A stretch of DNA of 33,801 bases. Source: Verrucomicrobiales bacterium. Lineage in GTDB: Bacteria; Verrucomicrobiota; Verrucomicrobiia; Verrucomicrobiales; V1-33. Position 1 is the first letter of the stretch, and every line of letters begins with the position of its first letter. Both the position numbers and the translations under genes were made by a program. A model generated the notes under the pieces. It did no database searches, was not told the origin of the DNA, and worked only from the letters and a program-made list of their open reading frames with translations. Below, piece by piece: positions 14,952 through 33,801 of the stretch. The stretch is taken from NCBI GenBank assembly GCA_018003315.1, contig JAGNEJ010000054.1, forward strand, positions 1-33,801, in the 5' to 3' direction.

Positions 14952-14997
14952 GAAGGCTGATAAAGATAGCCATCGAAACCAGAGCGCAACCGCCAAG

Positions 14998-15009
14998 GTC
15001 TGCACTACA
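14998..15009 (+). repeat. 12-bp direct repeat, right copy
   Basis: Second copy of GTCTGCACTACA, the partner of 13604–13615. Confidence 0.55.
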
Positions 15010-15601: not shown

Positions 15602-15630
15602 TTGACCGGGGAGCAAAAATTTTTCATTAT
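15602..15630 (+). promoter_or_regulatory. Candidate promoter of the sigma-factor gene
   Basis: TTGACC at 15602–15607 and CATTAT at 15625–15630 are separated by 17 bp, a reasonable match to a housekeeping -35/-10 pair. They lie 53 bp upstream of the ATG at 15684 in a locally AT-rich patch. The call is by consensus only; an autoregulated promoter with another consensus is also possible. Confidence 0.45.
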
Positions 15631-15670
15631 TGTGTAACGGCGGCGATTTTCGATCCCATAACCTTGTTAC

Positions 15671-15677
15671 AAGGAGA
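15671..15677 (+). promoter_or_regulatory. Strong ribosome-binding site of the sigma gene
   Basis: AAGGAGA lies 6 bp before the ATG at 15684 and decides that start over the earlier in-frame codon at 15630. It is the only strong Shine-Dalgarno match I found in front of a gene in this window. Confidence 0.8.
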
Positions 15678-15683
15678 TCCGCC

Positions 15684-16508: not shown

Positions 16509-16623
16509 CCGCCGGAACAAAAGCAAACCCAAAAAAATCCCAAACGTCGCCGTAAACATCATCCGTGCCCCCCCAATTCAGCGGCGCACCCGATTCAAAA
16601 CAAACATCGAACTTTCCCAAATC

Positions 16624-17247
16624 ATGAATCCCAATGAATCCATCGAAAACTCCCTCCGAACCCTGCGATTGAAGCACCCGAGCGAGGAAGACCTCATGGC
16701 TGTGCTTGATGGCACGGCCACCCCGACAACAAAGGCTGTTGTCGAAAGCCACCTGGCGCTGTGCCTCGTGTGCGAACGGAAGGCGGAAATTCTCCGCGAG
16801 ACAATGGACAGCTTTGAGGCAGCGGTGGCGAAACACCTCGGCACGGCGGCACCGGCCCGCCCCGCCCCGCCTCCTAACGTGATCCCCTTAAGGTTCGGGC
16901 CGGTGACGATCGGAGCCTCCACCACGCAAGCGTTCGCCGCCGCTTCCAGTGCTTCGGAGAAACCGTTCCCGGCCATCATGCTTGACACCGGCGACCACCG
17001 GCTCAAAGCCAAGCTCCGCAGGGCGCAGGGCGGCCTCGTGATCGAATTCTGGTCTGACGACGCCACGCTCATCGGGGCGGAGATTGAGTTCGAGTTCGCC
17101 GGCCGCATCGACTCGGTAACCCTAAAGCGTCACAAATCAGGATCGAGCACCTCCAACGTGCTGTTCCCGGTGACGCTGTCGGATGAGAAAGCGACGGCCG
17201 CCGCCTCCACCTTCGAAGTCCGGAGAATCCGCGCTGCGCTGGAGTAA
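16624..17247 (+). CDS. Soluble zinc-finger anti-sigma-like protein
   Basis: This 207-residue protein has near its start the anti-sigma zinc motif H43-x3-C47-x2-C50 (HLALCLVC), with an upstream His at 18 in KHPSEEDLMAVLDG, the usual ZAS layout. No membrane helix is visible, unlike the other anti-sigma in the window. After a Pro/Ala linker (~75–85) comes a beta-rich domain (~115–205: LKAKLRRAQGGLVIEFWSDD, then ATLIGAEIEFEFAG) that may be the sensor or a partner-binding module. Position directly behind the sigma gene argues that the two work as a pair. The signal sensed is not evident. Confidence 0.8.
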   Translation: MNPNESIENSLRTLRLKHPSEEDLMAVLDGTATPTTKAVVESHLALCLVCERKAEILRETMDSFEAAVAKHLGTAAPARPAPPPNVIPLRFGPVTIGASTTQAFAAASSASEKPFPAIMLDTGDHRLKAKLRRAQGGLVIEFWSDDATLIGAEIEFEFAGRIDSVTLKRHKSGSSTSNVLFPVTLSDEKATAAASTFEVRRIRAALE

Positions 17248-17419: not shown

Positions 17420-18205
17420 ATGACAGAAGGATCGCCGCCACTTTGCCCATCTCAGCCATTGTCGACCTTTTCCGGTCTGCTCACGGGTTGGGGCGACCTT
17501 GCGCCTGACGAAAAACCCGAATTCATCAAAAGCCTCTGTCATCCCATCGAACGGCGGTGGTTTTACGCCTGTCGGAATGCGGTGCGCCGTGTTGCTTCTG
17601 CGTCCGTTGATGCCGATGCCATTGATGCCGGGCGGCAACTTGCGAAGAAACTGTGGCCGGATGGCACTTGTGCAGAGTTCCGCGTGGCCGAGGCTCATCT
17701 CGCCTGTCTGGAAGCGATTGACGGCAAGCCATTCGCCGAAGCAGACGGGGAAAGCGGCACCACGGGGGCGGACACCGTGGTTTTGACCGCCGCTGCAAAA
17801 GCGCTTGACCTGCCCGTGCCGCTGTTGCTGGACATCGAGCATGAATTGCGCACCGGCCAGCCGCGCCAGCGCGTTCCCCGCAGCCTCGATTCTAGCGCAG
17901 ATCTTCGACGCGTGGAAATCCCCGGCGTCTTTCTGGTGAAGGAGGAGACCCCGAACGATCCAGCCTTCATCGCCCGGCTGGAACTGGAACTCGTCGCCCG
18001 TCCGGCGGCGGCGCAGGAAGCGACCGGCGTTCTCTATTCCGATGCCCGGCTGGCTTTTGTGTCTCGGAATGAGGATTGGCAGCGCGGGCCGAGAAGACAG
18101 CCCGGGCATTTGTTGAAGAGGTGCGCAAAAAGGCATGGCCTGCCGACATGGACATCCGGTGGCACCTTGCGCCTCGGGCGGAGGAGCAATTCCCCTTCCA
18201 CCTAG
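17420..18205 (+). CDS. N-terminal half of a Lon-like peptidase/TPR protein (frame lost near 18,085)
   Basis: From the ATG at 17420 the first ~222 residues form a module also found in the Lon-like/NTPase protein at 29848–32886. Shared landmarks are WFYAC (47–51, versus WFSAC), AEAHLACLEAID (90–101, versus AKLHCDLAIFIVD), GVLY (203–206, versus GCLY) and EDW (218–220, versus GDW). After residue 222 the frame drifts into Arg-rich nonsense to 18205 while the homologous sequence continues in the overlapping frame. The natural product is therefore probably one protein of ~1,402 residues spanning 17420–21627 after correction of one missing base. No ribosome-binding site is seen. The module's function is unknown. 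Confidence 0.7.
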   Translation: MTEGSPPLCPSQPLSTFSGLLTGWGDLAPDEKPEFIKSLCHPIERRWFYACRNAVRRVASASVDADAIDAGRQLAKKLWPDGTCAEFRVAEAHLACLEAIDGKPFAEADGESGTTGADTVVLTAAAKALDLPVPLLLDIEHELRTGQPRQRVPRSLDSSADLRRVEIPGVFLVKEETPNDPAFIARLELELVARPAAAQEATGVLYSDARLAFVSRNEDWQRGPRRQPGHLLKRCAKRHGLPTWTSGGTLRLGRRSNSPST

Positions 18206-21200
18206 AACTTTCCGGTGCTTCTGCTTCCGGCTGCTTTGCCGTTAGCATGGCGGCGCTTTGTCAGGATGAGGACTTCACCCGGCTGGATTTTCTGGGACTG
18301 GGACTCACCATGGACTTGCAGCCGGACGGCAGTGTGCGCGGGATCATTGGCCTCGACACCAAACTCCGCGGCGCCCGCACGGCCTTACCCGCCTTTCAGC
18401 ACATCGTCGTCGCCCATATTCAGATGTATCCTGACCCAAACCGGCAGGAACCCGACAGCGCCTTGGATTTCCGAACCCTGAGCGCCAACGGCACCATCCT
18501 GCACGATCCCGCCACGCGGGGCCTGCACATTCTTGCCGTCAAAAACCTTTCCGAGCTTCCAGCACTCTTGCGACAGGATTCCAAATTGAGGCAAAGGCGG
18601 AAGAAAATAATCATCACGCTAACCATCACGATAAGCTTGCTGATCGCCTTGAGTGTTGTGTTTCTTTTCCCCGGAAATGCTCCGGCAGCGCCGCCGCTGA
18701 TCGAACAGGCTCAGGGGGCGTGGCAGTTGAAGGACTGGAGCGCGGCTGAACGCCTCGCCCTTCAAGCCGCCGAGGAATTTCGCGACGGCGGCCCTCCTTC
18801 AGTGGAGGGGGTCATTACCGCCTATCAACTCGCTGGCAGGGCGGCATTGGCACGGGGCGCAGCCCCTGCGGCCGCAGAGCACCTCTCGAAAGCGATCGAG
18901 CTCACCAGCCGCGAAAAGGATCCATTGAAGTGGGCCAGGCTGAACCATGATCTGGCCAGTGCGCTGATGGCTCAAGCGCATGCGGACGACGCCATCAAGA
19001 TGCTGCGCACCGTCTGCCGCATCAAGGCGGAGCAACTGGGTGACGAAGACAAGGACACCGTGACCAGCCGTGGGAATCTCGCCAATGCCTTTCAATTGGC
19101 GGGTCGTTCGGCGGATGCCGAAACCACCTATCTGGCGCTGCTGCCAATCACGGAAAAATGGAGCGGGGAGGATCACAAGAATCATTTGACCCTGCTGCAT
19201 GATTTGGGAAGGGCACAGACCGCCCAGCGAAAATTTGCCAAGGCCATGCGGAACTATGAAGCGGTGCTCAAGGAGCGGATTGCATTGTTGGGCGAGGAAG
19301 ATTCCGAAACGCTCAAGACCAAGACGGCGATGGCCGAGATCTTCGCGGCGCAGGAACAGTGGGAGGCCGCAGAGAATCTACAAATCGAAGTGCTCAACGT
19401 CCGCAAGCGGATCAATCAACCCGAGGATCCTTTGCAGTTGCTCGCCCGGTTTGCGCTGGCCACCACACATTGGAAACAAGGACAGGTTGTGGCTGCAGAG
19501 GAGGAGTTCCGCGAGATCAAAGAAATTCAGGCCAAGATTTTGGGGCCGTCGCACCCCTGCACCCTCGCCTCGCGAATGAACTGGGCAAACTGCTTGTCGG
19601 ATCTCGGGAGACTGAAAGAAGCCTACGCCGAACACCACGAAGTCAACCGCCTGCGCAAAACGTCAGGAATCGGCACGCCAAAGGAATACGCTGGTGGCCT
19701 CCTGGCTGAAGCAGGGGCAGCGTCCAGACTTGGCAAATCGCGAGAGGCGCTGGGGCTTTACGAGGAAGCCGAAGCCAGCCTGAAGTCTTTGGCGAAACCC
19801 GAGGTCGAATTGGAATTATCCAGCCGGCTTGGGATAGCCTTCACCCTGATGAACCTCCACCGAAACTCGGAGGCCGAAGCGGCGATGGATGCGCTCATCC
19901 CCGAATTGGAGAAGCAATTCGGGCCCAACCATGTGATGACCGCAGGGGCTTGGCACAATCGGGCACTGCTTTACAAGGATCAGGGACGCTATGCAGAAGC
20001 AGAGACCATACTACGTCAGGTCATTAATCGCGGCGGGAATGCATCTAAAGAATCGCGGCGGGAAAAACTGGCGTGCGTCGCGGATCTGGCGAACGTACTC
20101 GCAGAGCAGCATAAGCTGACGGAGGCAGAGCGTCTCTATCAGGAAGTTCTTGATAAATATGAACAAGATTTTGGCCCCTCCCACCTGGATACCCTGACGG
20201 TCAAAGATGCCTATGCGGGGTATCAACTCTACCGGGGAGACTACAAGGCCGCTGCGGGGACTTACCGAGCGGTGATTGATGCGGCGAATGCGAATGGGAT
20301 GGCAGATTCCGAATTGGCGCTGCAGTCCCGCGGCAATCTAGCGGCTGCGTTGTGGAAAAGTGGCGACAATGTTCAGGCTGAAAAGGAAATCCGAACCCTG
20401 TTGGCCCGCTACAAGGAACTGCGGAGACCCGAAACCGATACCCGTGTGTTGAGCGCTCGCCGCAACCTGGCAGAATTCCTCCGCAGCCAGGGAAATTACC
20501 CTGCGGCAAAAGCCGAAGTCGAAAGTGTGCTTTCGTCGCTCCACAGTGTCGGCCTGCCGCCCGACGATCCACACATCATCCTCTGCCGCGGCAGGCTGGC
20601 GCTGATCATGGAAAACCTCGGCCGCTACGCCGAGTCCGAAAAGGAACTGGAGCAGATCCTGCCGCTGTGCACCAGCGACGTGCAGCGGGATAAACTGCGG
20701 GCGCAACTGGCGGGTGTGCGGATGAACCTGGGGCCTGAAGGTGCGCTGCAGGCCGTTCGGGAATTTGAGGACTTGATTGCCACCCGCAAGCAGCGGCTGG
20801 GAGCAAGCCATCCCGAAACCTTGGGTCTGCGGGCCAGGCATGCCCGGCTGCTCCAGGATTTGAGCCGCTACCCGGAAGCCGAGCGGGAGTTTGAAGAAAT
20901 CGCCGATTTGTGGAAGGGCAGGGATCCTGACGGAATCAATACATTCTGGGCGAGGTCGAACCTGGCCTGCGTGTGGCGGCTCCGCGGCGATGCGGAAAAA
21001 GCGGAAAAAGAGCATGCCGCTTTGCTGGATCGCGTCACCAAACAACCAACTCCGGATCCGGCGCTCGTGTTGGAACTGCGCAAGAAGCTGGCGGCAGACC
21101 AACTCGAGCGGGAAAATTTCAGGGACGCCAGGGCGCAGTATGATCAGGTGATCTCGCTGCTGGAAGCATACGACGTCAATTCTCCTGACATCATCGACGC

Positions 21201-21627
21201 CCGATTGAACCGTTCAACCGCTCTCGTCGGGCTGCACGAATTCAAGGCTGCCGAGGAGGACATTCGCAAAGTGATCCGGAGCTACGCGGAACGAGGACAG
21301 ACGAAGGAAACGGCCTATTTCGTGGCCAGAAATGTTCTCGCCTCCTGTTTGGAGGAGCAAGGCCGGCTTGCCGAGGCTGAGACAGAGCGCAAGGAAAACG
21401 TGATGGCGGCTCGGGTGGTCCTGGGCGCCAAGCACGAGCACACCCTCGGATACATTTTCAATTATGCGTTCTGTCTGGCCAAGGAGAAGAAGTTCGAAGA
21501 GGCTGCCGGACCGGCTCGCGAGGCCCTGGAAGGCCACAGGGAAGTGCTGGGTCCGACCCATTGGAAGACTGAAAATGCGCAGCGACTGTGGGATGAACTG
21601 CAGAAGGTTTTGCCCAAGACACAATGA
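18076..21627 (+). CDS. Lon-like (S16-type) peptidase – TM – TPR array protein
   Basis: Numbered from the TTG at 18076 (1,183 residues). Residues ~1–165 complete the module started at 17420 and contain a Lon-type peptidase core: GASASG with predicted nucleophile Ser49, DGSVRGIIGLDTKLRGAR with predicted general base Lys96, and the strand HIVVAHI. Lon-family peptidases use this Ser/Lys pair. A basic stretch and membrane helix follow (KKIIITLTITISLLIALSVV, ~177–198). The rest, ~205–1165, is a long kinesin-light-chain-type TPR array, with units such as DKDTVTSRGNLANAFQLAGR and HPCTLASRMNWANCLSDLGR; it has room for about 22 repeats. The topology suggests a cytosolic peptidase and external TPR superhelix, or the reverse. 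The first in-frame ATG is 18148, but homology requires upstream sequence. Substrates are unknown. Confidence 0.75.
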   Translation: MAARAEKTARAFVEEVRKKAWPADMDIRWHLAPRAEEQFPFHLELSGASASGCFAVSMAALCQDEDFTRLDFLGLGLTMDLQPDGSVRGIIGLDTKLRGARTALPAFQHIVVAHIQMYPDPNRQEPDSALDFRTLSANGTILHDPATRGLHILAVKNLSELPALLRQDSKLRQRRKKIIITLTITISLLIALSVVFLFPGNAPAAPPLIEQAQGAWQLKDWSAAERLALQAAEEFRDGGPPSVEGVITAYQLAGRAALARGAAPAAAEHLSKAIELTSREKDPLKWARLNHDLASALMAQAHADDAIKMLRTVCRIKAEQLGDEDKDTVTSRGNLANAFQLAGRSADAETTYLALLPITEKWSGEDHKNHLTLLHDLGRAQTAQRKFAKAMRNYEAVLKERIALLGEEDSETLKTKTAMAEIFAAQEQWEAAENLQIEVLNVRKRINQPEDPLQLLARFALATTHWKQGQVVAAEEEFREIKEIQAKILGPSHPCTLASRMNWANCLSDLGRLKEAYAEHHEVNRLRKTSGIGTPKEYAGGLLAEAGAASRLGKSREALGLYEEAEASLKSLAKPEVELELSSRLGIAFTLMNLHRNSEAEAAMDALIPELEKQFGPNHVMTAGAWHNRALLYKDQGRYAEAETILRQVINRGGNASKESRREKLACVADLANVLAEQHKLTEAERLYQEVLDKYEQDFGPSHLDTLTVKDAYAGYQLYRGDYKAAAGTYRAVIDAANANGMADSELALQSRGNLAAALWKSGDNVQAEKEIRTLLARYKELRRPETDTRVLSARRNLAEFLRSQGNYPAAKAEVESVLSSLHSVGLPPDDPHIILCRGRLALIMENLGRYAESEKELEQILPLCTSDVQRDKLRAQLAGVRMNLGPEGALQAVREFEDLIATRKQRLGASHPETLGLRARHARLLQDLSRYPEAEREFEEIADLWKGRDPDGINTFWARSNLACVWRLRGDAEKAEKEHAALLDRVTKQPTPDPALVLELRKKLAADQLERENFRDARAQYDQVISLLEAYDVNSPDIIDARLNRSTALVGLHEFKAAEEDIRKVIRSYAERGQTKETAYFVARNVLASCLEEQGRLAEAETERKENVMAARVVLGAKHEHTLGYIFNYAFCLAKEKKFEEAAGPAREALEGHREVLGPTHWKTENAQRLWDELQKVLPKTQ
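18080..18090 (+). other. Apparent single-base frameshift joining the two halves
   Basis: At CAGCGCGGGCCGAG the upstream frame reads DWQRG and the downstream frame reads AEKTARAF. Adding one base between CGC and GGCC gives DWQR-x-AEKTARAF, aligning with DWRDMERNIPLAL in the paralogue at 30451 onward. No classical slippery heptamer is present, so a mutation or sequencing error is more likely than programmed shifting. Confidence 0.7.
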
Positions 21628-21800
21628 TGCCCATGCCTGCGATGAGCGGCGTTCCGTCGGTCAGACTTTTGCGCAACATCTGATAGTCTGGAACTTTCTG
21701 GTTTTCTTGGCTCCGAGCACAGACCGAAAAAAGTGCAACGGTGAGTAAGACTGCATTTTCCTGTAACGCCCCGCGGCGCAGTGGCCCATGCAGTGGATGC

Positions 21801-24800
21801 ATGAAAACGTTCATCCCACTCTGTCTGGTTGCGCTTGGCGCTGCGCTGCTCCTTTCCGTTTCCCCCACCCAAGCCCAGGCGCCCCCGCCGTTGCCGCCGG
21901 GAGCTGGCAGTGACTTTGGAATTTCGCCGCTGCCGCCGGAAGCGGAGGCGCTCGCGCACAGCATCCCGACCCTGCACACCACACTGGAATACCGCAGCGC
22001 CACGCCGGCACAGCTCGCGGATGCTTATGCCCGGGTGGTGAACGACGTGACTAATCTGACGGGAAGCGTGCAGTCGGTGCTGATCGATGTGGGCAAATTC
22101 ATGATCGGCAAGGAGATTGACGCCCGGTCTACAGCCGGAACGACCGGGGAAGTGTTCCGGGTTGTGGCCAAGGAGGCGGTCAGTGAACTGGCCGGAGCGC
22201 TGCAGCGCCAAGCGGCGGCGGCCCGCACTTCGCCGGACACGCTGCGGGAGTTTCAATCGCTGGCGGATCAAGCGAAGGCGGACTTCATGAGTGCGCTGAA
22301 TCAGGCGGGACCGGCCGGCGAGTTCGTCCGGCCGATGGCGGAAGCGGCGCTGAACAAGGCGGTATCGGACTTGGTTTCTGCGGCCACGCCGGTGCTGCAT
22401 ACCGCAAACATTTACCGGGACCTCGCGGCGACGGCGGCATCGCTTTACCACGGCGTAACGGTGGCGACCCTGACCACCACGGTGACCGTTGCCAACGTGA
22501 ACATTTCCGAGGTCATCGTGCGGGACTTCACCTCACCGGCCAAGCCGCCCACCGGAGGCTATACCATCAGCATTCCGGTTCCCGCCTACGGAAATCCAAC
22601 GTCAAGTGGAGGCTACGGCAGCAGCGGCGGTGGTCATTCCGCTCCCTCCATCACTTTTGCCCCATCGGGGGGCTCTGGCCCATCGCTTACCTTTGCCTCA
22701 AAAACGACTGACGGAGTGGTGCTGCCGCCCTCCGGCGGGGTGTGGCAGCCATCACCATCTGCGGGGAATTCCGGAGGCGGCCAATTCTATCCTACTTGGG
22801 ACGGCGGTGGGGCTGAACTTTCGCCTGCCGTGTGCACCCTGCTGGCAGCCATGGCGTTTCAACAAGCCTGCTTGTTCTCCTCAGGCGATGCACCCCGCCA
22901 AGAGTCCGCCGCCACTCCCGTAGGGATGCCCTCAGATCCCCAAAAAACAGCCGCCCCAAAACCAGATGCCGGGCCTGTTCCTTTGCCGGTGCCAGAGTCT
23001 CTGGACCTCCCAGCGCACTGGTATCTGCCCATGGATCTGGCCGGAGCCACGGGTGAGGCGTGTGTTCCTGCTGCTTCCGTGCTTCATGGTGATGTGCCGA
23101 TGCGGACTTTCTCCTACCCCACAAAGGGGGGACCGGCGACGTTGGTTTTCGCCGCGGATGCGACCCGAACGGGAAAACCCTACGAAGGGGCGATTGCTAC
23201 CTGCACCATGACCACCAATGGCGTGCGTCTGAAAGACATTGATTCAGCAAATGGTTTCCTGATTTACCAGTTCGAGTCCCCGGAAAGTGGTGCGGCCGCC
23301 GGGTGTTACTACGGCTTGCAGTGGACGGCTGAAATCGGCCCGGAACGGGTGCTAATCTCGAATCCGCCGATTCCGGAAGCCCAATCGAGCCCCGCTGGAA
23401 CACGACTGATCACCTGTCAGGTTCACGGCCCAACCCCAGCGGCCTGCATGGCGGTGCTGGAGGCGTTCATTGGGAACGTGGCGGCCAGCGGGCGAAAAGT
23501 GCTGCTGCACCGCGAGGAACTGCCGGCCTGTTTCCTGCGGGATGCGAGAATGGACGGGACGCGGCTGGAGGCGGAGGTGTTCAACCGGTTTGTCGGCATG
23601 CTCCCCGCGGAAGTCACCGTCCGGCTCTGGCCGAAAACCTACGATCCGGCCCGGCCGGCGAGCCTCGCCTGCATCCTCCCGCTGGTTGGCGGAGTGAACC
23701 GCTGCGTGTTCCGCCTGCCGCATGTTGCCGGGGCCGCCAGCATTGAAATCAAGTCTGGGAAGAGCCGTTCACTGGCCTTTCTGCAGCGCGAAATTGTTCC
23801 ACTGGGCGAGAGGACGCAGGTGGCGGAAATCGCCGGAAGCGAAGGCTTGGCCGCAGGAACGCTGCCGCTGTTGGGAAATCGCCGCGGTTTCCGCCTCTCC
23901 GGCGACAGCCCGGCGATATTTGTTCCCTTTGCTTCGGTCAAACGTCGGCCCTGCGACGTGAGCGGCTGGGAGACGCTGGGGATCGAAGGCGTCTGCGCCA
24001 CAGGTTTCCGCTGTGCGGTCCAATTCATCGAAAAGCCGGAGGACATTGTTCTGGCGGCACAGGGCACCGGAAAAGAGGTCGCTCCGGGAAAATTCCGGCT
24101 GGTGGCACCGTTGCGGCCGCGGTTGGGTCAAAACCCAAGGTTGCTGGGAGCCGTCATCCAACTGACGCCTTCTGGTGCTTCTGTCGGCGGAAGAATCGAC
24201 CTGGAAGTTCGTGACCTGTGCCTCGCCGGCGGTCCGGCGAGCCGTGAGGATGTCTTTGGCCGCATCAGCCACGGCGGCATGGTCGTCACCCTGCCGGCGG
24301 GCTGGCGAATTGGCGTCGCCGGATTCACGCCGTTGTCTAGCCGCGCGCAACCGGCGGTGTTCTTTCCACAACGTGTCGATGCCCTGACAAATCCTCAGGG
24401 TTGGCAGGTGGCCCTCTGCGGAGTCGGCGGTTCCGGCGGCAGTGCGCGGATCGGGTTTCCGGCCGGACTGCCAGTTCCCGTGCTGCGAAACCTGTCTGGC
24501 CCGATTGCGCTGAGCACGGGTTCCGGAAATGCACCTTGCGCCACGCTTCCGGTTTCCGGCCAAGGAGCCTCCTGCGTTGCTTGGTGGGGAAAGGGCGCGG
24601 TGCCGTTGGAGGGCCTCCCATCCCGTTTCCCCATCCGGCTCCTGCGGGAGGAAGACCCGGTCCGCGCCTACGCCGCGGGCCGCAGCGACCTCGATCCCAT
24701 CACGGCCCTGCCGGGCGTCCCGGCTGCCACCGCCAATCCAAAATCTCCCGCGCCGGATGCGCCGCATGCCTCCGGCGAGCAGTTGCTGGCCGATTTTTCC

Positions 24801-25265
24801 AAGGGCACGGATGCCGTCGGCACGATCGGGCCGAAAGGGATGTCCGTGGCGAAGATTGTCAGGGGAGACGCGGCGGATGCGAATGCCACGCCCCGGCTGG
24901 TTATCGCGGCGGCGCCGGACGCCAAGTCCGGCGGCTACGGTGGCGGCTACGTGGACTTGGAGCGCCTCACGGGAAGTCCCGTTGCCTTCTCGCCCTCCGA
25001 TGTGCTGCGACTGGACATCCGGAATCTCGGCACGGCGACGGTGGATCTGGCCATCGAACTGAAGAGCCCCAACGAGAACTACACGCCGCGCCTGGTGCAT
25101 GCGGCCGCCAGGGCGGAAAGCGGCTGGAAGACGCTGGAGATTCCGCTTTCCAAATGTCTGGCGGCCGCTGCCGATCCCTGCAGCGTCATTTGTTTCGTCG
25201 TCACCCAACCCAGCCGGTTTGAGATCGACAACCTGCGGCTGGTGAAGCGCCCCATCGCCCCATGA
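21801..25265 (+). CDS. Very large secreted protein, unknown function
   Basis: Using the ATG at 21801 (MKTFIPLCLVALGAALLLSV, cleavage near AQA) gives 1,154 residues. The N-terminal ~230 residues are Ala-rich and helical (AVSELAGALQRQAAAARTSP). A Gly/Ser-rich low-complexity stretch (GGYGSSGGGHSAPS) and a Pro/Ser linker follow at ~255–340. The large middle part alternates short beta strands with no recognised motif. The last ~160 residues (ADFSKGTDAVGTIGPKG to RFEIDNLRLVKRP) resemble a jelly-roll, galactose-binding or CIA30-like domain often used for carbohydrate or surface binding. The gene lies between the Lon-like/TPR gene and the MoxR gene on the same strand, so it may be the exported component of the locus or simply inserted there. 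The earlier in-frame start at 21741 would mask the signal peptide. Confidence 0.75.
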   Translation: MKTFIPLCLVALGAALLLSVSPTQAQAPPPLPPGAGSDFGISPLPPEAEALAHSIPTLHTTLEYRSATPAQLADAYARVVNDVTNLTGSVQSVLIDVGKFMIGKEIDARSTAGTTGEVFRVVAKEAVSELAGALQRQAAAARTSPDTLREFQSLADQAKADFMSALNQAGPAGEFVRPMAEAALNKAVSDLVSAATPVLHTANIYRDLAATAASLYHGVTVATLTTTVTVANVNISEVIVRDFTSPAKPPTGGYTISIPVPAYGNPTSSGGYGSSGGGHSAPSITFAPSGGSGPSLTFASKTTDGVVLPPSGGVWQPSPSAGNSGGGQFYPTWDGGGAELSPAVCTLLAAMAFQQACLFSSGDAPRQESAATPVGMPSDPQKTAAPKPDAGPVPLPVPESLDLPAHWYLPMDLAGATGEACVPAASVLHGDVPMRTFSYPTKGGPATLVFAADATRTGKPYEGAIATCTMTTNGVRLKDIDSANGFLIYQFESPESGAAAGCYYGLQWTAEIGPERVLISNPPIPEAQSSPAGTRLITCQVHGPTPAACMAVLEAFIGNVAASGRKVLLHREELPACFLRDARMDGTRLEAEVFNRFVGMLPAEVTVRLWPKTYDPARPASLACILPLVGGVNRCVFRLPHVAGAASIEIKSGKSRSLAFLQREIVPLGERTQVAEIAGSEGLAAGTLPLLGNRRGFRLSGDSPAIFVPFASVKRRPCDVSGWETLGIEGVCATGFRCAVQFIEKPEDIVLAAQGTGKEVAPGKFRLVAPLRPRLGQNPRLLGAVIQLTPSGASVGGRIDLEVRDLCLAGGPASREDVFGRISHGGMVVTLPAGWRIGVAGFTPLSSRAQPAVFFPQRVDALTNPQGWQVALCGVGGSGGSARIGFPAGLPVPVLRNLSGPIALSTGSGNAPCATLPVSGQGASCVAWWGKGAVPLEGLPSRFPIRLLREEDPVRAYAAGRSDLDPITALPGVPAATANPKSPAPDAPHASGEQLLADFSKGTDAVGTIGPKGMSVAKIVRGDAADANATPRLVIAAAPDAKSGGYGGGYVDLERLTGSPVAFSPSDVLRLDIRNLGTATVDLAIELKSPNENYTPRLVHAAARAESGWKTLEIPLSKCLAAAADPCSVICFVVTQPSRFEIDNLRLVKRPIAP

Positions 25266-25416: not shown

Positions 25417-26370
25417 ATGAAATCAACCATTGCCCCCCCCAACTCGCGCAACGGCGGCCTGCCGCTGCTGCCCATCGAACACGAACGCGCCCCGTCCGCA
25501 CAATCCTATGAACGGGTCTCCATTTCCGGCGTGGCGATCCTCCTGCCGGAGCCGGCGGAGGTCCCTGCCCTGACCCTCCACGGGCAGGAGTCCCTTCTGG
25601 AAAACATCGCCACGGCCTGGGCGGCGGGGCTGCATCCCTCCATCGAAGGGGAGCCAGGCAATGGAAAGACGGCGGCCAGCCAGCAGGCGGCGCGGCGCGA
25701 CCGCATGGACTGCTACATGTTCAACGGCCATGCCGAGGTGACGCCGGAGGATCTCATCCTGACCGGTCGTGTCGTCGATGGCGGCGGCATTGAATACGTT
25801 GGTTCGCCATTGTTTGCGGCGGCCTGTCGCGGCGGAGTGGCCGTGATCGATGAACTGGCCAAAATCCCGTCCCGCTCCCTCTCCCCGCTGGCCTCGGCGC
25901 TGGATGATCGCCGCACCCTGACATCCTCCCTGGCCGGCATCACCCTCAAGGCCCACCCGGATTTCCGCTTCGTGGCGACGATGAACACTGCGGACCGTGA
26001 ACTGGATCCGCTGCCGGGCTTCATCGACGAGCGGCTCCGCCCGCGGTTCAGGGTCGGCTACCCGGACGTGAAACACTATCCGTCCATCGTCGAGGCGGCT
26101 GTGCCGCTGTCGCCGCCGGTCCTGCGCAAAGCCTTCCGTGACTGGATGCACCGCCGCACCAGCCCCATTTCACCGCGCTGCGCGATCACGGTTTTCCGTT
26201 TTGCCGCCAGCCGGCTGGCCCGCGCCGGGCATGGAGCCGCCATCCTCACGAAATCCGAGGCGCAAAACCTCCTTACGGAAATCGCCGCCCTCGTCGTGGA
26301 ATTGCCCGCAGCGGGTCCGTGGAGGTCCGGAGAAATGCAGGCCGCCACTGATGAAACCTCACCCTGGTAA
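25417..26370 (+). CDS. MoxR-type AAA+ ATPase
   Basis: This 317-residue protein is a single AAA+ module: Walker A GEPGNGKT (78–85), Walker B VAVIDE (141–146), sensor 1 in FVATMN (Asn190), and Arg residues at 206–210 (ERLRPRF) positioned as the trans finger. The helix-2 insert region (NGHAEVTPEDLILTGRVVDG) matches the MoxR/AAA_5 group, whose members remodel partner proteins, usually a vWA-domain protein encoded next door. No vWA gene with a MIDAS motif (DxSxS) is seen downstream, so the partner may be the TraB-like protein 35 bp away. The gene is the first of five closely spaced genes (gaps of 28–61 bp) that run to the window end. Confidence 0.9.
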   Translation: MKSTIAPPNSRNGGLPLLPIEHERAPSAQSYERVSISGVAILLPEPAEVPALTLHGQESLLENIATAWAAGLHPSIEGEPGNGKTAASQQAARRDRMDCYMFNGHAEVTPEDLILTGRVVDGGGIEYVGSPLFAAACRGGVAVIDELAKIPSRSLSPLASALDDRRTLTSSLAGITLKAHPDFRFVATMNTADRELDPLPGFIDERLRPRFRVGYPDVKHYPSIVEAAVPLSPPVLRKAFRDWMHRRTSPISPRCAITVFRFAASRLARAGHGAAILTKSEAQNLLTEIAALVVELPAAGPWRSGEMQAATDETSPW

Positions 26371-26405
26371 GGCCCCACCCGAACGCTGCTTCCGACACTC
26401 ATGCC

Positions 26406-28493
26406 ATGAAAACGCCCATTCTTCGCCAATTCACCCAAGCTGTCGGCAGTTTCTGCCTGCGCTGGGGCTCCAAACCGCTGTTTGCAGTGCCGTCGTGCCA
26501 CAATCGAGTGGCTTATGCGGCGGCGGTTGTCGCCGCGGCGGAGCAGTTGCTGCCGGATGTCATTGCCATCGAGCTGCCCGGCAGCTTGAATCGCAGTCCG
26601 GAGTTCACAGCCGCGGTCAACAAAATCTGGCCGCGTCCCGGCGCGGTGATCCTGGCGCCGCAAGGCTCCAGCGGAAACGCGATGGGATCCATCGTGCCCG
26701 TTAGTGTGGCCGATTCGCTCATCGTTGCCATGAAGCTGCCCGCGATCCTGGCCCGGCGCCATCCTGGCTGGCGGCCGGAAATCCGCTTCATCGATGCGGA
26801 AAATCGTCCGCAAAAACACGGCGGCGAGGTGCCGGTGCGTGACGACTGGAGTGTGATGGCGCTGCCCGATGGCCTCATGGTCGAGTCTGCTCGCGTTGCC
26901 GGCGCCAGTCTGAAACGCGATCCCTACGATGACATCCGGGAACAGGTCATGGCCGCGTGGCTGCGCGGGATTGTCCGATCCGGAAAATCGGTGCTCGCCG
27001 TGTTTGGTGCGGCCCACACCGCGGGCATTGCTGCGACGCTCGACGCTGGCGCCTGCTTTCCGGACGATCCCACGGCCCTGGGCGAAGGCCTTTCAAATGC
27101 AATGAAGTTCGATGCCTTGAAACTCAACGCCACCCATCAATGGGCCAACGGCCTGCTCGATTCCTCACCGGCGGAAGCCCATGCCTTCCAGCAATATCTG
27201 CTGCAGCTGCCCGCGTCTGGGCCGCTCGTTGCGTTCAACAAGGCGGAGGCTGTGAAAAGCATCGCCGCGGCCGCCGCAAGCCGGGCCGCGCGGGAACTGC
27301 CCGGCGGCGAGTTTTCCGTCCGCTCCTTGCAGCAGTGGTGGAAATACGCCAGCCAGTCGCTCACCCTGCAGGGCCGCTGGACGCACCACTCGTTCGTCCG
27401 CTGGCTGGACCAGGCCCGCGATACCATCGGCCCGCGCTTTCCCCGCATTCTGGAAGAGGAATTCCGCCGCTACCCCGGTGGCGAGGACGCCGATGGCTTT
27501 CTGCTGTTTTCCCACGGTTCCGGCAACGGCGTCGCCTTGCGCCCCAAAGGCTCCCGCTCCCGTGGCAAACCACCGACCACCCGGGTGACGCTGGCGGGCG
27601 GCCAGGCGGTCACCGTGCCGGACGGGGCGGAGGAAATCCGTCAGCGGCTCAGCGATGAGGCGGAAGGGAAAGACCCGGAGCCGTCGTCCTGGCAAATGGT
27701 ACCCGCCGCTTCCGAGCAGCGGCTGCACCGGAAAAACTACAAGGCGCTCCGCGTCATCGGCCATCGGAAACTCGCCGGGAAGACGGTCCGGGATCCGATT
27801 GCGGTGCGCTTCGAAGGTAACTCCGGCCTCGGCTTTGACATCCGGGCGACCCTCCGCGCCAGAAGCCACGGCGAATCGGCGCTCTTCGTCAAACATCCCG
27901 GCCGCCGGCGTTTTGTCGAGGATACCCATCCTGGTCTGTGCGATGGAAAATGCCCGTTGTTGTTCGTCTTCGACCCGGATGCCAAAGTCACCTCCACCGA
28001 CAGCGGCCTGTTCTTCCTGCCCACCGGCCGCGCCTATGCGTCCCACTACGCATACACCGGCCAGCGCCGTCTCGCGGGAGGCGCCATCCGGCAGGGGACC
28101 ATCTGCTATTTCCTGGCGCTGCTGCGTGAACTCGCACCCTACGACCCGAAGGCCGTTGCGAAACTAGTCAGCAGTCTCCCGCCCCGGCGCGTTTGCACCC
28201 GCCGGCCGTGGAGCGACCCGGAACTGGGCGGCTTCTCCGGCGTCAATGTGCTTCTTGCCTGCGCCATCAAGCACGCCGACGACCACATCGTCCTGGCGGC
28301 CAAACGCAATTTCACCCTAACCCCTGCCGTCCAGGAATTCGCCCGTTCCAGACGCGTCCGGATCGTTCGCGTGCTCCCCGCCGAACTCGATTCCCGCCTC
28401 TTCTCCCGCCTGTCGCTGGAACACATCGTTCCGGCCCCCGGCGCGTACACCGCGCCGTTCGAATGGACGGAGCAATACGTCACCCCGGTGTGA
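26406..28493 (+). CDS. TraB/TIKI-like domain protein with large unknown C-terminus
   Basis: In this 695-residue protein, residues ~25–215 follow the TraB/PrgY–TIKI–EreA pattern. VPSCHNRVAYAAAV has His32 at the place of the GTAH motif, DVIAIELPG has Glu56, RDPYDDIREQVMAAWLR matches the conserved Arg helix, and VFGAAHTAGI has His204. These superfamily members are metal-dependent hydrolases or signalling proteins, including the TIKI proteases. The 480-residue C-terminus contains W/R-rich helices (QWWKYASQSLTLQGRW), a beta-rich middle (LRVIGHRKLAGKTV) and a possible alpha/beta end (VNVLLACAIKHADDHIVLAA); I do not recognise it. Its position between the MoxR ATPase and a PfkB-like gene suggests it is the MoxR client. 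The TIKI assignment rests on motif order only. Confidence 0.6.
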   Translation: MKTPILRQFTQAVGSFCLRWGSKPLFAVPSCHNRVAYAAAVVAAAEQLLPDVIAIELPGSLNRSPEFTAAVNKIWPRPGAVILAPQGSSGNAMGSIVPVSVADSLIVAMKLPAILARRHPGWRPEIRFIDAENRPQKHGGEVPVRDDWSVMALPDGLMVESARVAGASLKRDPYDDIREQVMAAWLRGIVRSGKSVLAVFGAAHTAGIAATLDAGACFPDDPTALGEGLSNAMKFDALKLNATHQWANGLLDSSPAEAHAFQQYLLQLPASGPLVAFNKAEAVKSIAAAAASRAARELPGGEFSVRSLQQWWKYASQSLTLQGRWTHHSFVRWLDQARDTIGPRFPRILEEEFRRYPGGEDADGFLLFSHGSGNGVALRPKGSRSRGKPPTTRVTLAGGQAVTVPDGAEEIRQRLSDEAEGKDPEPSSWQMVPAASEQRLHRKNYKALRVIGHRKLAGKTVRDPIAVRFEGNSGLGFDIRATLRARSHGESALFVKHPGRRRFVEDTHPGLCDGKCPLLFVFDPDAKVTSTDSGLFFLPTGRAYASHYAYTGQRRLAGGAIRQGTICYFLALLRELAPYDPKAVAKLVSSLPPRRVCTRRPWSDPELGGFSGVNVLLACAIKHADDHIVLAAKRNFTLTPAVQEFARSRRVRIVRVLPAELDSRLFSRLSLEHIVPAPGAYTAPFEWTEQYVTPV

Positions 28494-28544
28494 CGTCAAT
28501 CTCATGTAACGCTGCAACCGATTCGAGCCCAATTCCCCTTTTGT

Positions 28545-29786
28545 ATGAATGCGATCACCTCTTCCCTGTCGGGCGATGGCGCTGGGTTTCCTGGCATCAT
28601 TGCGGTTTCATCATCAGTTACGGACATTGTCCTGCGGCCCTCGCAGGTGTCGATTGTGCACCCCCGGGTCGATTTCACCCTGCCGTCAGGCGTCCGCTGG
28701 CTGATGCCGTATGACGGCCCGCCGCTGGCCAGCGAAGGCAAACGCACGGTGCAGCATGACTTGTCCCATTTTCGCAATACACCGGGTGCCCAATTGCGCC
28801 CCGGCTCCGGCGGGGTGAATTCGGTGCTCTTTGCGCGGGGCCTGGAGCCACAGGCAACTTTCGTGCTTGTCGATTCCTCCGCTCCCGGTCGGGAAGTTGC
28901 TTCCGCGATGAAGTCCGCGGGGGTCGTCTGGCATCCGCTGGGTACCGGGCCGGTGGCCGCAAATTTGATCCTCGAGTGGAAGCCGTCGCCCCCTGCCTCT
29001 CCCGCCCGCATCTGTCTGCGCGGCCCCCGTACCGCAGAGTCCGCCGCGCCGGTTTTACAGAACTCCGTTCGTCCCAGAATTTTTGACTGGCCCAGGGAGA
29101 AGCCGATGACGCTTTGGCTGAATTCCTGCCGTGATTCGGCGCTGGTGCGGATGCTGAGCGATGAAGCCGCGGCCCGCGGCCTTCCGCAATACAGCGTGCT
29201 GACTCCGGCCCTGCCGCTGCGGGAGCGCCTTTCCCTGCAACTGGAACGCGATGTGCTGTCGATGGCGAATTGGGAGGAAACGCAGGAACTGGCCCGGGGG
29301 CTGGGCCTTCCCACCCCGGACGAACCGGAAGACCAGGTGGACCTCGCGGACGCGGCGGAAACGGTGCGCCGGATCATGGCGGAAGGCGGCCGGGGCGATG
29401 TCATCACCACCTTCGGTCCACGCGGCCTCATGGCTTCGGGCCGCTCTCACGCCGCCGTCTGGTGGATCCACCTGCATGACCAAAAACTCATCGAACGCCT
29501 CGTTGCCTGCTCTGGAAAAGTCACCGGTATGGGGGATCGCTGCTTTGCCGCCACAGCCCTGGCGCATTTTCAGGCCCCCCCCGGACCAGGCCGCGTGGTG
29601 CGGGCGGCCCACCTGGGCGCGGCGCAGGTGGTCGGTCATGCCTGCGGGCTGGCGGTCGCTCCCCGCGACGCCTTCCTTGTGCGGCCGGTCGCGGCCACCG
29701 GGCTTTCTGCTTGCACCAGCATGGCCACCGGCCGGTTCTCTGCGTTTTCCTCCCTGCTGCGCACAGCCGGCCGCGCTGCTTTGTGA
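28545..29786 (+). CDS. PfkB/ribokinase-like protein
   Basis: This 413-residue protein shows both PfkB signatures. The N-terminal glycine region is LRPGSGGVNSVLFARGLEPQ (85–102), followed by FVLVDSSAPGREVASAMKSAGV. The C-terminal anion-hole segment is KVTGMGDRCFAATALAHF, with GMGD at 328–331 in place of the usual GAGD and Asp331 as the expected catalytic base. GDVITTFGPRGLMA provides the strand before it. PfkB enzymes phosphorylate sugars, nucleosides or related alcohols with ATP. The ~110-residue N-terminal extension and acidic stretch (DEPEDQVDLADAAE) are unusual. Found in a MoxR/Lon/STAND neighbourhood, it may make or modify a small signalling or toxic molecule rather than serve central metabolism; that is inference. 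Confidence 0.7.
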   Translation: MNAITSSLSGDGAGFPGIIAVSSSVTDIVLRPSQVSIVHPRVDFTLPSGVRWLMPYDGPPLASEGKRTVQHDLSHFRNTPGAQLRPGSGGVNSVLFARGLEPQATFVLVDSSAPGREVASAMKSAGVVWHPLGTGPVAANLILEWKPSPPASPARICLRGPRTAESAAPVLQNSVRPRIFDWPREKPMTLWLNSCRDSALVRMLSDEAAARGLPQYSVLTPALPLRERLSLQLERDVLSMANWEETQELARGLGLPTPDEPEDQVDLADAAETVRRIMAEGGRGDVITTFGPRGLMASGRSHAAVWWIHLHDQKLIERLVACSGKVTGMGDRCFAATALAHFQAPPGPGRVVRAAHLGAAQVVGHACGLAVAPRDAFLVRPVAATGLSACTSMATGRFSAFSSLLRTAGRAAL

Positions 29787-29847
29787 GGATTCCGCCACTC
29801 GGGGCTTGTCAATTTCCTCTGGCTCCTCCACACTCCCTGCCAAATCC

Positions 29848-32800
29848 GTGCCGCCCAACCCATTTGACCAAATTTCACCGGGCGACCCGCTCTTGGACGC
29901 AGCGCAGCGCCTGTGGTTCTCCGCCTGTGTGGAGGCGGTGCAGACGGGCCGGGAAAATCCTGACTCGGCCAAACAGTGGCTCGCGGAAGCTCCCATTGAC
30001 AGGTGCGGGGACGATCTAAACGTCAAGGCTGTTGCCAAATTGCATTGCGACCTCGCCATTTTCATCGTGGATCACACCCGCACCTTGTCAGGGAAGACGG
30101 GAATTTTCTCTCCCACCGCCGATGCTGAAGGCCTCGGCAAACTCGCCGCCAAATACTCCCTGCTTACCAGCGCGGCCGAACCTAACGATCCTGGCCCGAA
30201 ATCCACTCCCGTCCCCGCCGGGTTGGTCATGGACCTGGCGCAGGAAATGGCCGGACCATCCGAGCCCACACTGCGCGCAGACGGCACGTTCCGCGGCTCC
30301 CTGCGTCCGCACATCCGCAGCACGGCGGTTCCCATCCTGTTTCTTCTGGGAAACGATCCAGCCATCGGCTGGATGACGCTGGAACTCATCGAAAACGGCA
30401 CGGGCTGCCTGTATCCATCCCCGGAGCATCTTTTCCTCTCCTGTGACGGGGACTGGCGGGACATGGAGCGGAATATTCCTCTGGCATTGAAACACCTTGG
30501 TCTCTGGCGCGGGAATGCGGACATTCGTTGGCGGCTCCGCCTGAAGTCCCCAGCCGATGCCGTAAAAAGGTTCATCGACGGCGGAACTCCCCTCGCCGGA
30601 GCCTCCGCCGGAGCCATTGTGGCGCTGGGTTGCGCCAGCTTGTTTGGCGGACCGGGGGTGTGGGCTTCGCTGGATGTCTCGCAGACTGCTTTCACCGCAG
30701 GCATCCATGCGGATGGCACCCTCTTCGCCGTTTCCGGCGTGGACGTTAAACTCGCCGGTGCCGCCCGCAATGCGGAAATCTGGCCGCGGCTGGGCACCGT
30801 GGGCATGGCGGCGTTGAATCTTGAGGAACTCAAGGAAGACTGGAAGAGCGGCGAAACTCACCGCGGGGTTCTGGACGACCTCGGCGGACATGTTTTCAAG
30901 GAGAAGGATCATGAGTTTTACCTGGTGGGCGCTGCCACGCTTCAGGAGGCAGCGCAGCGCCTGCACTTCCACCGCACCCAGCGCTGGCCGGAGGGTGATG
31001 GCTGGCTGGCTCCCACGCCGCCGGATTTCATTGAGCGTCCGGCCTTTGACTCCGCCATCTGGAATTTCATCCACGACTCTACATCCGACCACGGGGCCCT
31101 GGTCATCGTGGCGGCGGCGGGCTACGGGAAGACCACCTGGATGACCGGCTGGCTCAACCAGCTGCGGGCCGCAGGCAAGGCTCCGGTGCATTATTTCATT
31201 CGCTACCAGGCCGCTGCCAGCCGCGAGCATATTGCCGAAAGCCTTTTCCACCAATTGCGCCGCAATCATCTCATCGCCGATCACGAAGTCCCTTCCGGCA
31301 CGCCCTCCAATCGCCTCAAGGCCCTGCTGCCACTCGTCAGCAAAAAGCTGCCGCGGGATGCCGCCGGCCACATCACCCAGCCGGAAATCCTATTCATCGA
31401 GGCTGCGGACCAGACGCGCCATGCGGACACCCTGCTCGCGGGCATGATTCATCCGGGCCTGGAGCCCGGTATCTGGTGCGTCTTCACCACCCGGCAAGAC
31501 CAGCACTGGCTCACCACCGGGCAGGGGGTGCGCTTTGTCGATTTCGTTTCCGGTCAGGAAATGCCCCGCCACGATGCACCCCCGGCCACCACCGAGGCGG
31601 AAAAACCCTATCGAGATGCCATTCGGGCCTACTTGCAGAAGGAAACCACCCAACTCGATCCCCCGCTGGCGGAGGGTTTCATCGAACGCATCGCCGCCGC
31701 TGATTCCCTCCCTGGCAAATCCCAGCGCGTGGTCCCCATTTTCGGCACCGTGGCGGATACTGTGGCGCGGCTGCTGGGGAAAAAGCAGGCGGAACCCGGA
31801 TTTCTCACCCGCTGCCGGACGGAAATCGCCCCGTGGCTCCAGGAATGGGCGGAGCGGGCAACGGATGATGCCATTCACTTGGAAAACCGGGTCACCGGGG
31901 AACTGGGCTTGAAAATGACCGGCTCTCCGGCCCGACTGCTCTGGCAGACGCTGGCGCTGCTGGACCTCGCCTGCCGTCCGCTCTCCCGCACCGAACTCGA
32001 CATACTTGCCCGCAAGGCCCTTTTCGATACCGATGATTCCCTAACCGATTCCCGCGCCAAAAAGCGCGACGGCCAGGAAGTAGAGTATCTGGACGCGTTC
32101 AAAAAAAATCTGACCACCCACCACGAGTGTCTTTTGAAATTGGCAGTGAACTTCTTTGCCTACCGGGCCTTTGGCGACCTGCCGAACGAACCCTATACCT
32201 TTTTCCACCCGGCTTACGCTCGTCTGGTGCGGGAGCGACTGGCCGGCCATGCCCAAGCGGAGGAAGAGTGCCACCACCTGCTGGGCTCTGCCTGCCTGGA
32301 GCTGCTTCTGGACGGTGCCGGGAAGCTTCGCTCAGACCCTGACTTCCGCAAGGACGCCAGTCTGCCTGCCTATGCGTTTCGCCATGCGGTGCACCACCTT
32401 TCCCGCACCCAGCGCCCCGCGCCGTGGCGGGACTTGGAATCCCTCCTCTGCGCCCTGCCCTATATGGAGGCGCGATGGAAGGCGGGGCAGCTTTATGACT
32501 TGCTGGGGGACTGGGCGGAGGCGCTGACCCGGCATCCGGAGGAGATTGCCGAAACCCGGACCTCGACCGCCTGGCTGGCAGAGTTTTTTGCCTGGATCAA
32601 GAAGGTGGCGGAGCGTCCGCTGGGCGCACCCTGTCCGCCCGTGCCGGCTGTTCCGGATTCCACCCGCGGGGCGGCCACCGTCGCTGACCCGGCCACCTTC
32701 ACCCAGAACGACCGCCTGCATCTCTGGTTCCAGTTCCTCACGGATTCTGTGGCAGCCCTCACCTTCGGCGACGCCCATCCCAATCTCCCTCCACCCGATC

Positions 32801-32886
32801 TCGCCGTCCTCGCCTGCAACTCCGCCTCCCACGGCCCCGTCCACGCAGCCGGCAAAGCCGCCCTCGGTTTCCCTCATCATTCATAA
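29848..32886 (+). CDS. Shared module – Lon-like peptidase – STAND-type P-loop NTPase
   Basis: Numbered from the GTG at 29848 (1,012 residues). Residues 1–~250 are homologous to the 17420 protein (WFSAC 23–27, GCLY 186–189, GDW 201–203, DIRW 225–228). A Lon-type core follows: GASAG with Ser253, DGTLFAVSGVDVKLAGAA with Lys301. Next comes a P-loop NTPase with Walker A AAAGYGKTT (422–430, Lys428) and Walker B ILFIEAAD (514–521), then helical segments to the end, as in STAND/NACHT proteins that act as ATP-driven switches. The gene is followed at 28 bp by a WD40 gene, a partner usually fused to such NTPases. A TTG at 29806 is an alternative start. Expected role: sensing through WD40, NTPase switching, peptidase effector; all inferred. 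Confidence 0.75.
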   Translation: MPPNPFDQISPGDPLLDAAQRLWFSACVEAVQTGRENPDSAKQWLAEAPIDRCGDDLNVKAVAKLHCDLAIFIVDHTRTLSGKTGIFSPTADAEGLGKLAAKYSLLTSAAEPNDPGPKSTPVPAGLVMDLAQEMAGPSEPTLRADGTFRGSLRPHIRSTAVPILFLLGNDPAIGWMTLELIENGTGCLYPSPEHLFLSCDGDWRDMERNIPLALKHLGLWRGNADIRWRLRLKSPADAVKRFIDGGTPLAGASAGAIVALGCASLFGGPGVWASLDVSQTAFTAGIHADGTLFAVSGVDVKLAGAARNAEIWPRLGTVGMAALNLEELKEDWKSGETHRGVLDDLGGHVFKEKDHEFYLVGAATLQEAAQRLHFHRTQRWPEGDGWLAPTPPDFIERPAFDSAIWNFIHDSTSDHGALVIVAAAGYGKTTWMTGWLNQLRAAGKAPVHYFIRYQAAASREHIAESLFHQLRRNHLIADHEVPSGTPSNRLKALLPLVSKKLPRDAAGHITQPEILFIEAADQTRHADTLLAGMIHPGLEPGIWCVFTTRQDQHWLTTGQGVRFVDFVSGQEMPRHDAPPATTEAEKPYRDAIRAYLQKETTQLDPPLAEGFIERIAAADSLPGKSQRVVPIFGTVADTVARLLGKKQAEPGFLTRCRTEIAPWLQEWAERATDDAIHLENRVTGELGLKMTGSPARLLWQTLALLDLACRPLSRTELDILARKALFDTDDSLTDSRAKKRDGQEVEYLDAFKKNLTTHHECLLKLAVNFFAYRAFGDLPNEPYTFFHPAYARLVRERLAGHAQAEEECHHLLGSACLELLLDGAGKLRSDPDFRKDASLPAYAFRHAVHHLSRTQRPAPWRDLESLLCALPYMEARWKAGQLYDLLGDWAEALTRHPEEIAETRTSTAWLAEFFAWIKKVAERPLGAPCPPVPAVPDSTRGAATVADPATFTQNDRLHLWFQFLTDSVAALTFGDAHPNLPPPDLAVLACNSASHGPVHAAGKAALGFPHHS

Positions 32887-32914: not shown

Positions 32915-33801
32915 ATGCTGCTGTCGCTCCATCGCCCGCTCCCACAGCCCCGCCCAGCCCTGCTGCGCGTCCTGGAGGGCCTCTCGAACGGGGTCACGTC
33001 CGTGGCGCTCAGTGCCGATGGGCGCACCGCCATCTCGGGAAGTGTTGACAAAACCCTGCGCGTCTGGGACCTCGCCACCGGGCAATCCCGCGTCCTGGAG
33101 GGCCACTCGAACTGGGTCATGTCCGTGGCGCTCAGTGCCGATGGGCGCACCGCCATCTCGGGAAGTCTTGACAACACCCTGCGCGTCTGGGACCTCGCCA
33201 CCGGGCAATCCCGCGTCCTGGAGAGCCACTCGAACGGGGTCAGGTCCGTGGCGCTCAGTGCCGATGGGCGTACCGCCATCTCGGGAAGTGCTGACAACAC
33301 CCTGCGCGTCTGGGACCTCGCCACCGGGCAATCCCGCGTCCTGGAGGGCCACTCGAACTGGGTCAGGTCCGTGGCGCTCAGTGCCGATGGGCGCACCGCC
33401 ATCTCGGGAAGTGCTGACAACACCCTGTGCGTCTGGGACCTCGCCACCGGGCAATCCCGCGTCCTGGAGGGCCACTCGAACAGGGTCAGGTCCGTGGCGC
33501 TCAGTGCCGATGGGCGCACCGCCATCTCGGGAAGTGATGACAACACCCTGCGCGTCTGGGACCTCGCCACCGGGCAATCCCGCGTCCTGGAGGGCCACTC
33601 GAACGGGGTCAGGTCCGTGGCGCTCAGTGCCGATGGGCGCACCGCCATCTCGGGAAGTTTTGACAAAACCCTGTGCGTCTGGGACCTCGCCACCGGGCAA
33701 TCCCGCGTCCTGGAGGGCCACTCGAACGGGGTCAGGTCCGTGGCGCTCAGTGCCGATGGGCGCACCGCCATCTCGGGAAGTTTTGACAAAACCCTGTGCG
33801 T
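32915..33801 (+). CDS. WD40-repeat protein, 3' end outside window
   Basis: The ATG at 32915 opens a frame that is still open at the window end (at least 295 residues). After 18 residues come tandem 41-residue WD40 units, VLEGHSNxVxSVALSADGRT, then AISGSxDxTLxVWDLATGQS. Six are complete and a seventh is cut by the edge. Each has the GH, SVALS, D and WD signature of a propeller blade. The units differ almost only at residues 8, 10, 26, 28 and 31 of the repeat. WD40 propellers are interaction platforms and, at the C-terminus of STAND proteins, usually form the sensor. The gene is in a different frame from the NTPase and 28 bp after it. Seven blades would already form a closed propeller; more may follow. 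Confidence 0.85.
   Translation, partial: MLLSLHRPLPQPRPALLRVLEGLSNGVTSVALSADGRTAISGSVDKTLRVWDLATGQSRVLEGHSNWVMSVALSADGRTAISGSLDNTLRVWDLATGQSRVLESHSNGVRSVALSADGRTAISGSADNTLRVWDLATGQSRVLEGHSNWVRSVALSADGRTAISGSADNTLCVWDLATGQSRVLEGHSNRVRSVALSADGRTAISGSDDNTLRVWDLATGQSRVLEGHSNGVRSVALSADGRTAISGSFDKTLCVWDLATGQSRVLEGHSNGVRSVALSADGRTAISGSFDKTLC
32969..33801 (+). repeat. Seven 123-bp tandem coding repeats (last partial)
   Basis: Unit starts are 32969, 33092, 33215, 33338, 33461, 33584 and 33707, an exact 123-bp period. Units are nearly identical in DNA. I find a single silent change (CGC to CGT in unit 3), while changes at codons 8, 10, 26, 28 and 31, plus single changes at codons 4 and 5, all alter the amino acid. 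Units 6 and 7 are identical as far as visible. Confidence 0.95.

Follow-up and report, generated by a model that had tools for sequence, protein, structure and literature searches.

The current view of MoxR-class AAA+ ATPases is that they work by way of vWA proteins; nearly all members of the wider MoxR clade, to which midasin, NorQ and CbbQ belong, pair with such a protein, dynein being named as the apparent exception (PMC7159879). In the cryo-EM structure of NorQ-NorD a finger of the vWA domain sits in the pore of the ATPase, and the same group notes that McrC does likewise to McrB without any vWA domain (PMC9976466, PMC13036017). The YehL-YehM-YehP operon combines an AAA_5 ATPase, a DUF5682 protein and a VWA_CoxE protein (E. 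coli b2119-b2121). Its three genes are well conserved as a set, both across Verrucomicrobiales and in E. coli (L039-L048; L049:6597-11104). No paper was found in a literature search by the family name DUF5682, and no solved relative of YehM was found by sequence.

The window, by which we mean the whole stretch of 33,801 nucleotides analysed here, makes up a whole contig in the 5.1-Mb draft assembly of a Verrucomicrobiales bacterium, and its end at 33801 falls inside WD40 repeats. Three of its open reading frames, for an ATPase, a large partner protein and a PfkB-like protein, share one strand and are separated by gaps of 35 bp and then 51 bp (Table 1). An earlier note had named these three genes from the sequence, and the reading frames and the 35-bp spacing between ATPase and partner were reproduced here. 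The same note fairly expected a vWA partner for the ATPase, because MoxR-clade members nearly all have one (PMC7159879). The ATPase and its partner constitute instead a real, conserved, small gene family without an adjoining vWA gene.

Table 1. Features of the ATPase-partner locus and adjacent genes, in window coordinates.
Feature	Position	Strand	Basis
AAA+ ATPase, MoxR/CbbQ/midasin class (AAA_5), 317 aa	25417..26370	+	Pfam, profiles, motifs, clade
Partner, 695 aa: TraB/TIKI/YehM-like ~1-215, helical middle, new C-terminal domain ~430-695	26406..28493	+	
H32 codon (PSxH), first conserved His of TraB-like domain	26499..26501	+	alignment
E56 codon (IELP), conserved Glu of TraB-like domain	26571..26573	+	alignment
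H204 codon (GAAH, GX2H motif), second conserved His of TraB-like domain	27015..27017	+	alignment
Partner C-terminal domain, residues 430-695	27693..28490	+	family alignment; weak AlphaFold model
PfkB-like gene (weak), neighbour in window genome only	28545..29786	+	short RbsK match
Lon-like domain + NACHT/NPHP3-type NTPase, neighbour in window genome only	29848..32886	+	NPHP3_N 4.3e-5

The same ATPase-partner pair occurs at three further loci, in Verrucomicrobiaceae MAG-17 (G033), in another Verrucomicrobiales genome (G504) and on plasmid pS13 of Neochlamydia sp. S13. The partner gene lies directly 3' of the ATPase gene in all four of these distantly related genomes, with an overlap of 4 nt in G033 and of 1 nt in G504, a gap of 5 nt in Neochlamydia and the 35 nt of the window. 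The partners show identities of 36, 27 and 20 per cent, so the linkage of the two genes has outlasted deep divergence. Generic WD40 and FGE-like matches aside, the window has no proteins in common with the loci of G033 and G504 but the ATPase and the partner. Of the three further copies, two came from searches of several hundred genomes in the order and in the phylum, and the third, that of Neochlamydia, from a search of plasmids. Three ATPase matches at E<=1e-20 were obtained in 240 genomes of the order, every one of them in a pair, and the pair is present in 3 of 387 genomes of the order, a rare and scattered occurrence that suggests horizontal spread. Searches with the partner returned the MAG-17 match alone among genome contigs, and searches of viral contigs, phages and plasmids returned Neochlamydia alone. 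A third match of the phylum search (G299, E 0.0055 over 30 residues) was taken as chance.

The ATPase matches the Pfam family AAA_5 above the cut-off (E=1.6e-17) but AAA_3, the MoxR family, with E=0.016. In profile searches the solved structures closest to it are those of midasin, NorQ and CbbQ, and among reference proteins a NorQ-type protein gives the best match to the profile of the pair (92 bits). The name MoxR ATPase given previously is therefore apt in the broad sense but not as MoxR proper, and by its sequence the protein is a member of the CbbQ/NorQ/midasin (AAA_5) branch of the MoxR class. Walker A (GNGKT), Walker B (VIDE), sensor-1 (N190), the arginine finger (R206) and sensor-2 (R254) are recognized, and the catalytic motifs are invariant across the four homologues, one Walker A position excepted. 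The segment between Walker A and Walker B can be aligned to the insert of NorQ, GGIEYVGSPL with GDTHWVDGPL, and is a candidate helix-2 beta-hairpin insert. In the tree the four pair ATPases form their own clade with support of 99/98, separate from YehL. Identity of the pair ATPase with YehL had been expected and was dropped, since the tree and the profile scores disagree with it.

The N-terminus of the partner carries the TraB/TIKI-type histidine motifs noted earlier; the profile matches are repeated and the His/Glu/His set is conserved, but every match lies below the curated cut-off (PF01963 and TIGR00261). PF01963 matches the family with E=0.017 in the window and 0.0095 (15.4 bits against a cut-off of 26.8), and TIGR00261 with E=0.0014 and 0.0022 (17-17.7 bits against a cut-off of 178). 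Sub-threshold TraB/PrgY/GumN matches fall at the GX2H segment independently in the window, MAG-17 and Neochlamydia proteins. The Neochlamydia partner also matches the N-terminus of DUF5682 (E=0.028; best 13.2 bits against a cut-off of 26), and in the partner family the DUF5682 match is confined to this N-terminus, with no full-length match over the cut-off. Comparison of a profile of the four partners with one of eleven YehM/DUF5682 proteins gives 74 bits and E 4.5e-8 over 183 columns, against 13-21 bits for reversed, column-shuffled and unrelated profiles. By these profile comparisons the TraB-like domain of the partner and the N-terminal region of YehM/DUF5682 are homologous. Five invariant positions are common to partners and YehM in the combined alignment, namely H32, E56, D130, R178 and H204 (window numbering); H32, E56 and H204 hold throughout the 4 partners and 11 YehM proteins, H32 aligning with the IRH/VRH histidine of the 11. 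Of the 2His/2Glu catalytic set (PMC6254334), two His and one Glu are recognized in the partner, and they fit a TIKI/Ere-type hydrolase, an activity that is predicted (PMC6254334). Against such an activity, the first histidine of the domain belongs to a PSxH segment instead of a GX2H one, and ExH was not seen.

Among the adjacent genes that were inspected, in the window as at the three other loci, there was neither a vWA Pfam match nor a MIDAS. The earlier statement that the genes following the ATPase lack a MIDAS (DxSxS) proved correct, the motif being absent from the window reading frames 21741-25265, 25417-26370, 26406-28493, 28545-29786 and 29251-32886, and DxSxS and the looser D.[ST].[ST] being absent from all four partner homologues, the three outside the window included. 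That a vWA gene lies beyond the window, as had been proposed, is unlikely, since three further loci with readable flanks have none adjoining the pair. As a control, a canonical MoxR (AAA_3) gene is found beside a DUF58 gene in G033, 15 kb from the pair and on the opposite strand. The complex could still be completed in trans by a vWA protein whose gene lies at another place in the genome: the window genome has 15 VWA_2 matches, all on other contigs, and in E. coli yehM shares an operon with the vWA gene yehP. However, YehP was not found in the three pair-bearing genomes searched (window genome, G033 and G504), and MoxR-class genes normally adjoin their vWA gene, as the MoxR-DUF58 operon of G033 does, so that we regard completion in trans as unlikely. 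Similarly, DUF5682 was not found in the window genome or in G033.

The C-terminal ~265 residues of the partner are conserved within the family, with the motifs GLGxDxRxT and CxxxCPxxFxFD in three of the four proteins, and nothing in Pfam or in profile comparison matches them. The C-terminal parts of the partner and of YehM are unrelated by profile. AlphaFold gave a mean pLDDT of 38.6 for the full partner modelled with three sequences and, for the C-terminal 266 residues, a weak model with a mean pLDDT of 54.9 and a pTM of 0.59; the models are poor because three sequences are too few. A vWA domain hidden in this region, for which the earlier note had asked, was thus sought by motif, by profile and by fold, and none was seen, the fold model being the weak one just described. 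The C-terminus might nonetheless be a highly degenerate vWA or vWA-like Rossmannoid domain, the pair then being a disguised MoxR-vWA couple of the usual kind. For the last ~85 residues the prediction is helix-strand-helix-strand, an arrangement that vWA domains also have, FVFD closes a hydrophobic strand in the manner of the start of a MIDAS strand, and MIDAS aspartates are missing in some vWA domains of ternary systems (PMC7159879). In contrast, the four homologues lack DxSxS and D.[ST].[ST] alike, and there is no profile match to YehP, ViaA, NorD or DUF58, although YehP and NorD, which both are vWA proteins, also fail to match each other in the same test. In the weak model, moreover, the predicted order is strand, hairpin, helix, strand, helix, strand, which is unlike vWA, and the listed fold matches include no vWA domain and no confident match of any kind. 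Taken with these observations, a disguised vWA couple appears improbable. Two other candidates for the C-terminal domain were rejected. A hint of an RNase-H-like strand order, given by the best VIA-align rows (Z 4.5 for the N-terminal domain of PepQ; Z about 3 for RuvX, RNase H, integrase and Argonaute), lies below the level expected by chance, and a Mrr-like restriction nuclease, considered from GLGxDxRxT...xVK, lacks the acidic residue of motif III and has arginine for the lysine in G033.

The pair resembles YehL-YehM-YehP in that a MoxR-class ATPase gene is followed by a gene for a large protein with a homologous TraB-like N-terminus. In contrast, yehP is present in 10 of 10 Verrucomicrobiales loci read and in E. 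coli, whereas the pair has no vWA gene; the ATPase clades are also separate, and the likeness of the two large proteins does not extend to their C-terminal parts. With NorQ-NorD and CbbQ-CbbO the pair shares an ATPase of the same AAA_5 branch, but there the partner has a vWA domain with a MIDAS and a finger, in place of which the protein described here has a TraB-like domain and lacks a MIDAS. In McrB-McrC there is a ring ATPase that resembles NorQ and a non-vWA finger, that of McrC, which enters the pore (PMC9976466, PMC13036017), but McrB is far in sequence (12.6 bits), and no connection of the pair with GTP or DNA restriction was seen. The MoxR-vWA ternary conflict systems also place a MoxR-class ATPase near STAND, protease-like and WD40 genes, but the vWA protein that defines them is absent beside the pair, and Pfam gives no match to VMAP, iSTAND, FtsH or bpX domains in the pair or the scanned neighbours.

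These comparisons suggest that a MoxR-class ATPase can work with another kind of partner, one distantly related to E. coli YehM. The earlier proposal of a new client class for MoxR is better put as a new class of partner, the two genes being tightly spaced or overlapping and kept together. We infer, with about even confidence, that the pair is a vWA-free two-component AAA+ remodeller in which the TraB-domain protein serves as adaptor. The ATPase would form a hexamer, and the partner would be its dedicated adaptor in the place of a vWA protein, a role suggested by the spacing and joint conservation of the two genes, which adaptor genes also show. Part of the partner may engage the ring, by analogy with the finger of the NorD vWA domain or that of McrC, McrB and McrC being a precedent for a finger-in-pore partner without vWA (PMC13036017, PMC9976466). 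Hydrolysis of ATP might then remodel or gate the TraB-like hydrolase domain of the partner, or a target that the partner holds. A bolder version, put forward tentatively and at somewhat less than even confidence, is that a TraB/TIKI-like enzyme has replaced the vWA co-chaperone and that ATP hydrolysis directly gates a hydrolase; by extension, YehM would be the constant partner of YehL and the vWA protein an add-on. A vWA-free pair offers a minimal system for asking what the ring acts on, and it gives a first handle on YehM/DUF5682 of E. coli.

The genes downstream of the pair, PfkB-like and Lon-NACHT-WD40, are local neighbours and not components of it, because the PfkB-like and Lon-NACHT genes are absent beside the pair in the other three loci. 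The PfkB-like kinase of the earlier note is a weak assignment: a pairwise match with RbsK over 24 residues (E=0.0055) and GG/GMGD-type motifs seen by eye speak for it, but Pfam gives no match up to E=10. The whole stretch (sigma, anti-sigma, Lon-TPR, AAA, TraB-like, PfkB-like, Lon-NACHT, WD40) could alternatively be a single anti-invader or stress-response island with the pair as one of its modules. Its NACHT/STAND, WD40 and MoxR components match those of described conflict systems (PMC7159879), and the G033 pair too has genes for a sigma factor and a zf-HC2-caspase protein as neighbours. However, the neighbours differ in all four loci, those at the G504 and Neochlamydia loci are ordinary, and PADLOC gives no match to the partner proteins; a unitary island is accordingly an improbable account of the locus.

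Several further features of the stretch were recorded. The gene at 29848-32886 has a Lon-protease-like N-terminus ahead of its NACHT/NPHP3 NTPase, which had been missed previously; it is 32% identical to the P-domain of E. coli Lon over 97 columns, and the dyad Ser (GASAG) and Lys (KLAGA) are present. A second Lon-like N-terminus, with GASAS and KLRGA, precedes TPR repeats at 17420-21627, and both domains are missed by the Lon models of Pfam. Judged by the paralogue at 29848, the Lon-TPR gene is split into overlapping frames (17420-18205 and 18076-21627) near 18076-18100, a candidate genuine frameshift, decay or assembly error. A short way past the stop codon of Lon-NACHT, a different frame opens with near-identical WD40 repeats (32915-33801), and the contig probably breaks inside them because the repeats halted assembly. 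Sigma factor and zf-HC2 anti-sigma genes lie near the pair both in the window (15630-17247) and in G033 (L006:950-4390), where zinc finger and caspase-like peptidase form one fusion protein. On the minus strand at 13640-15503, overlapping frames look like a decayed transposase gene.
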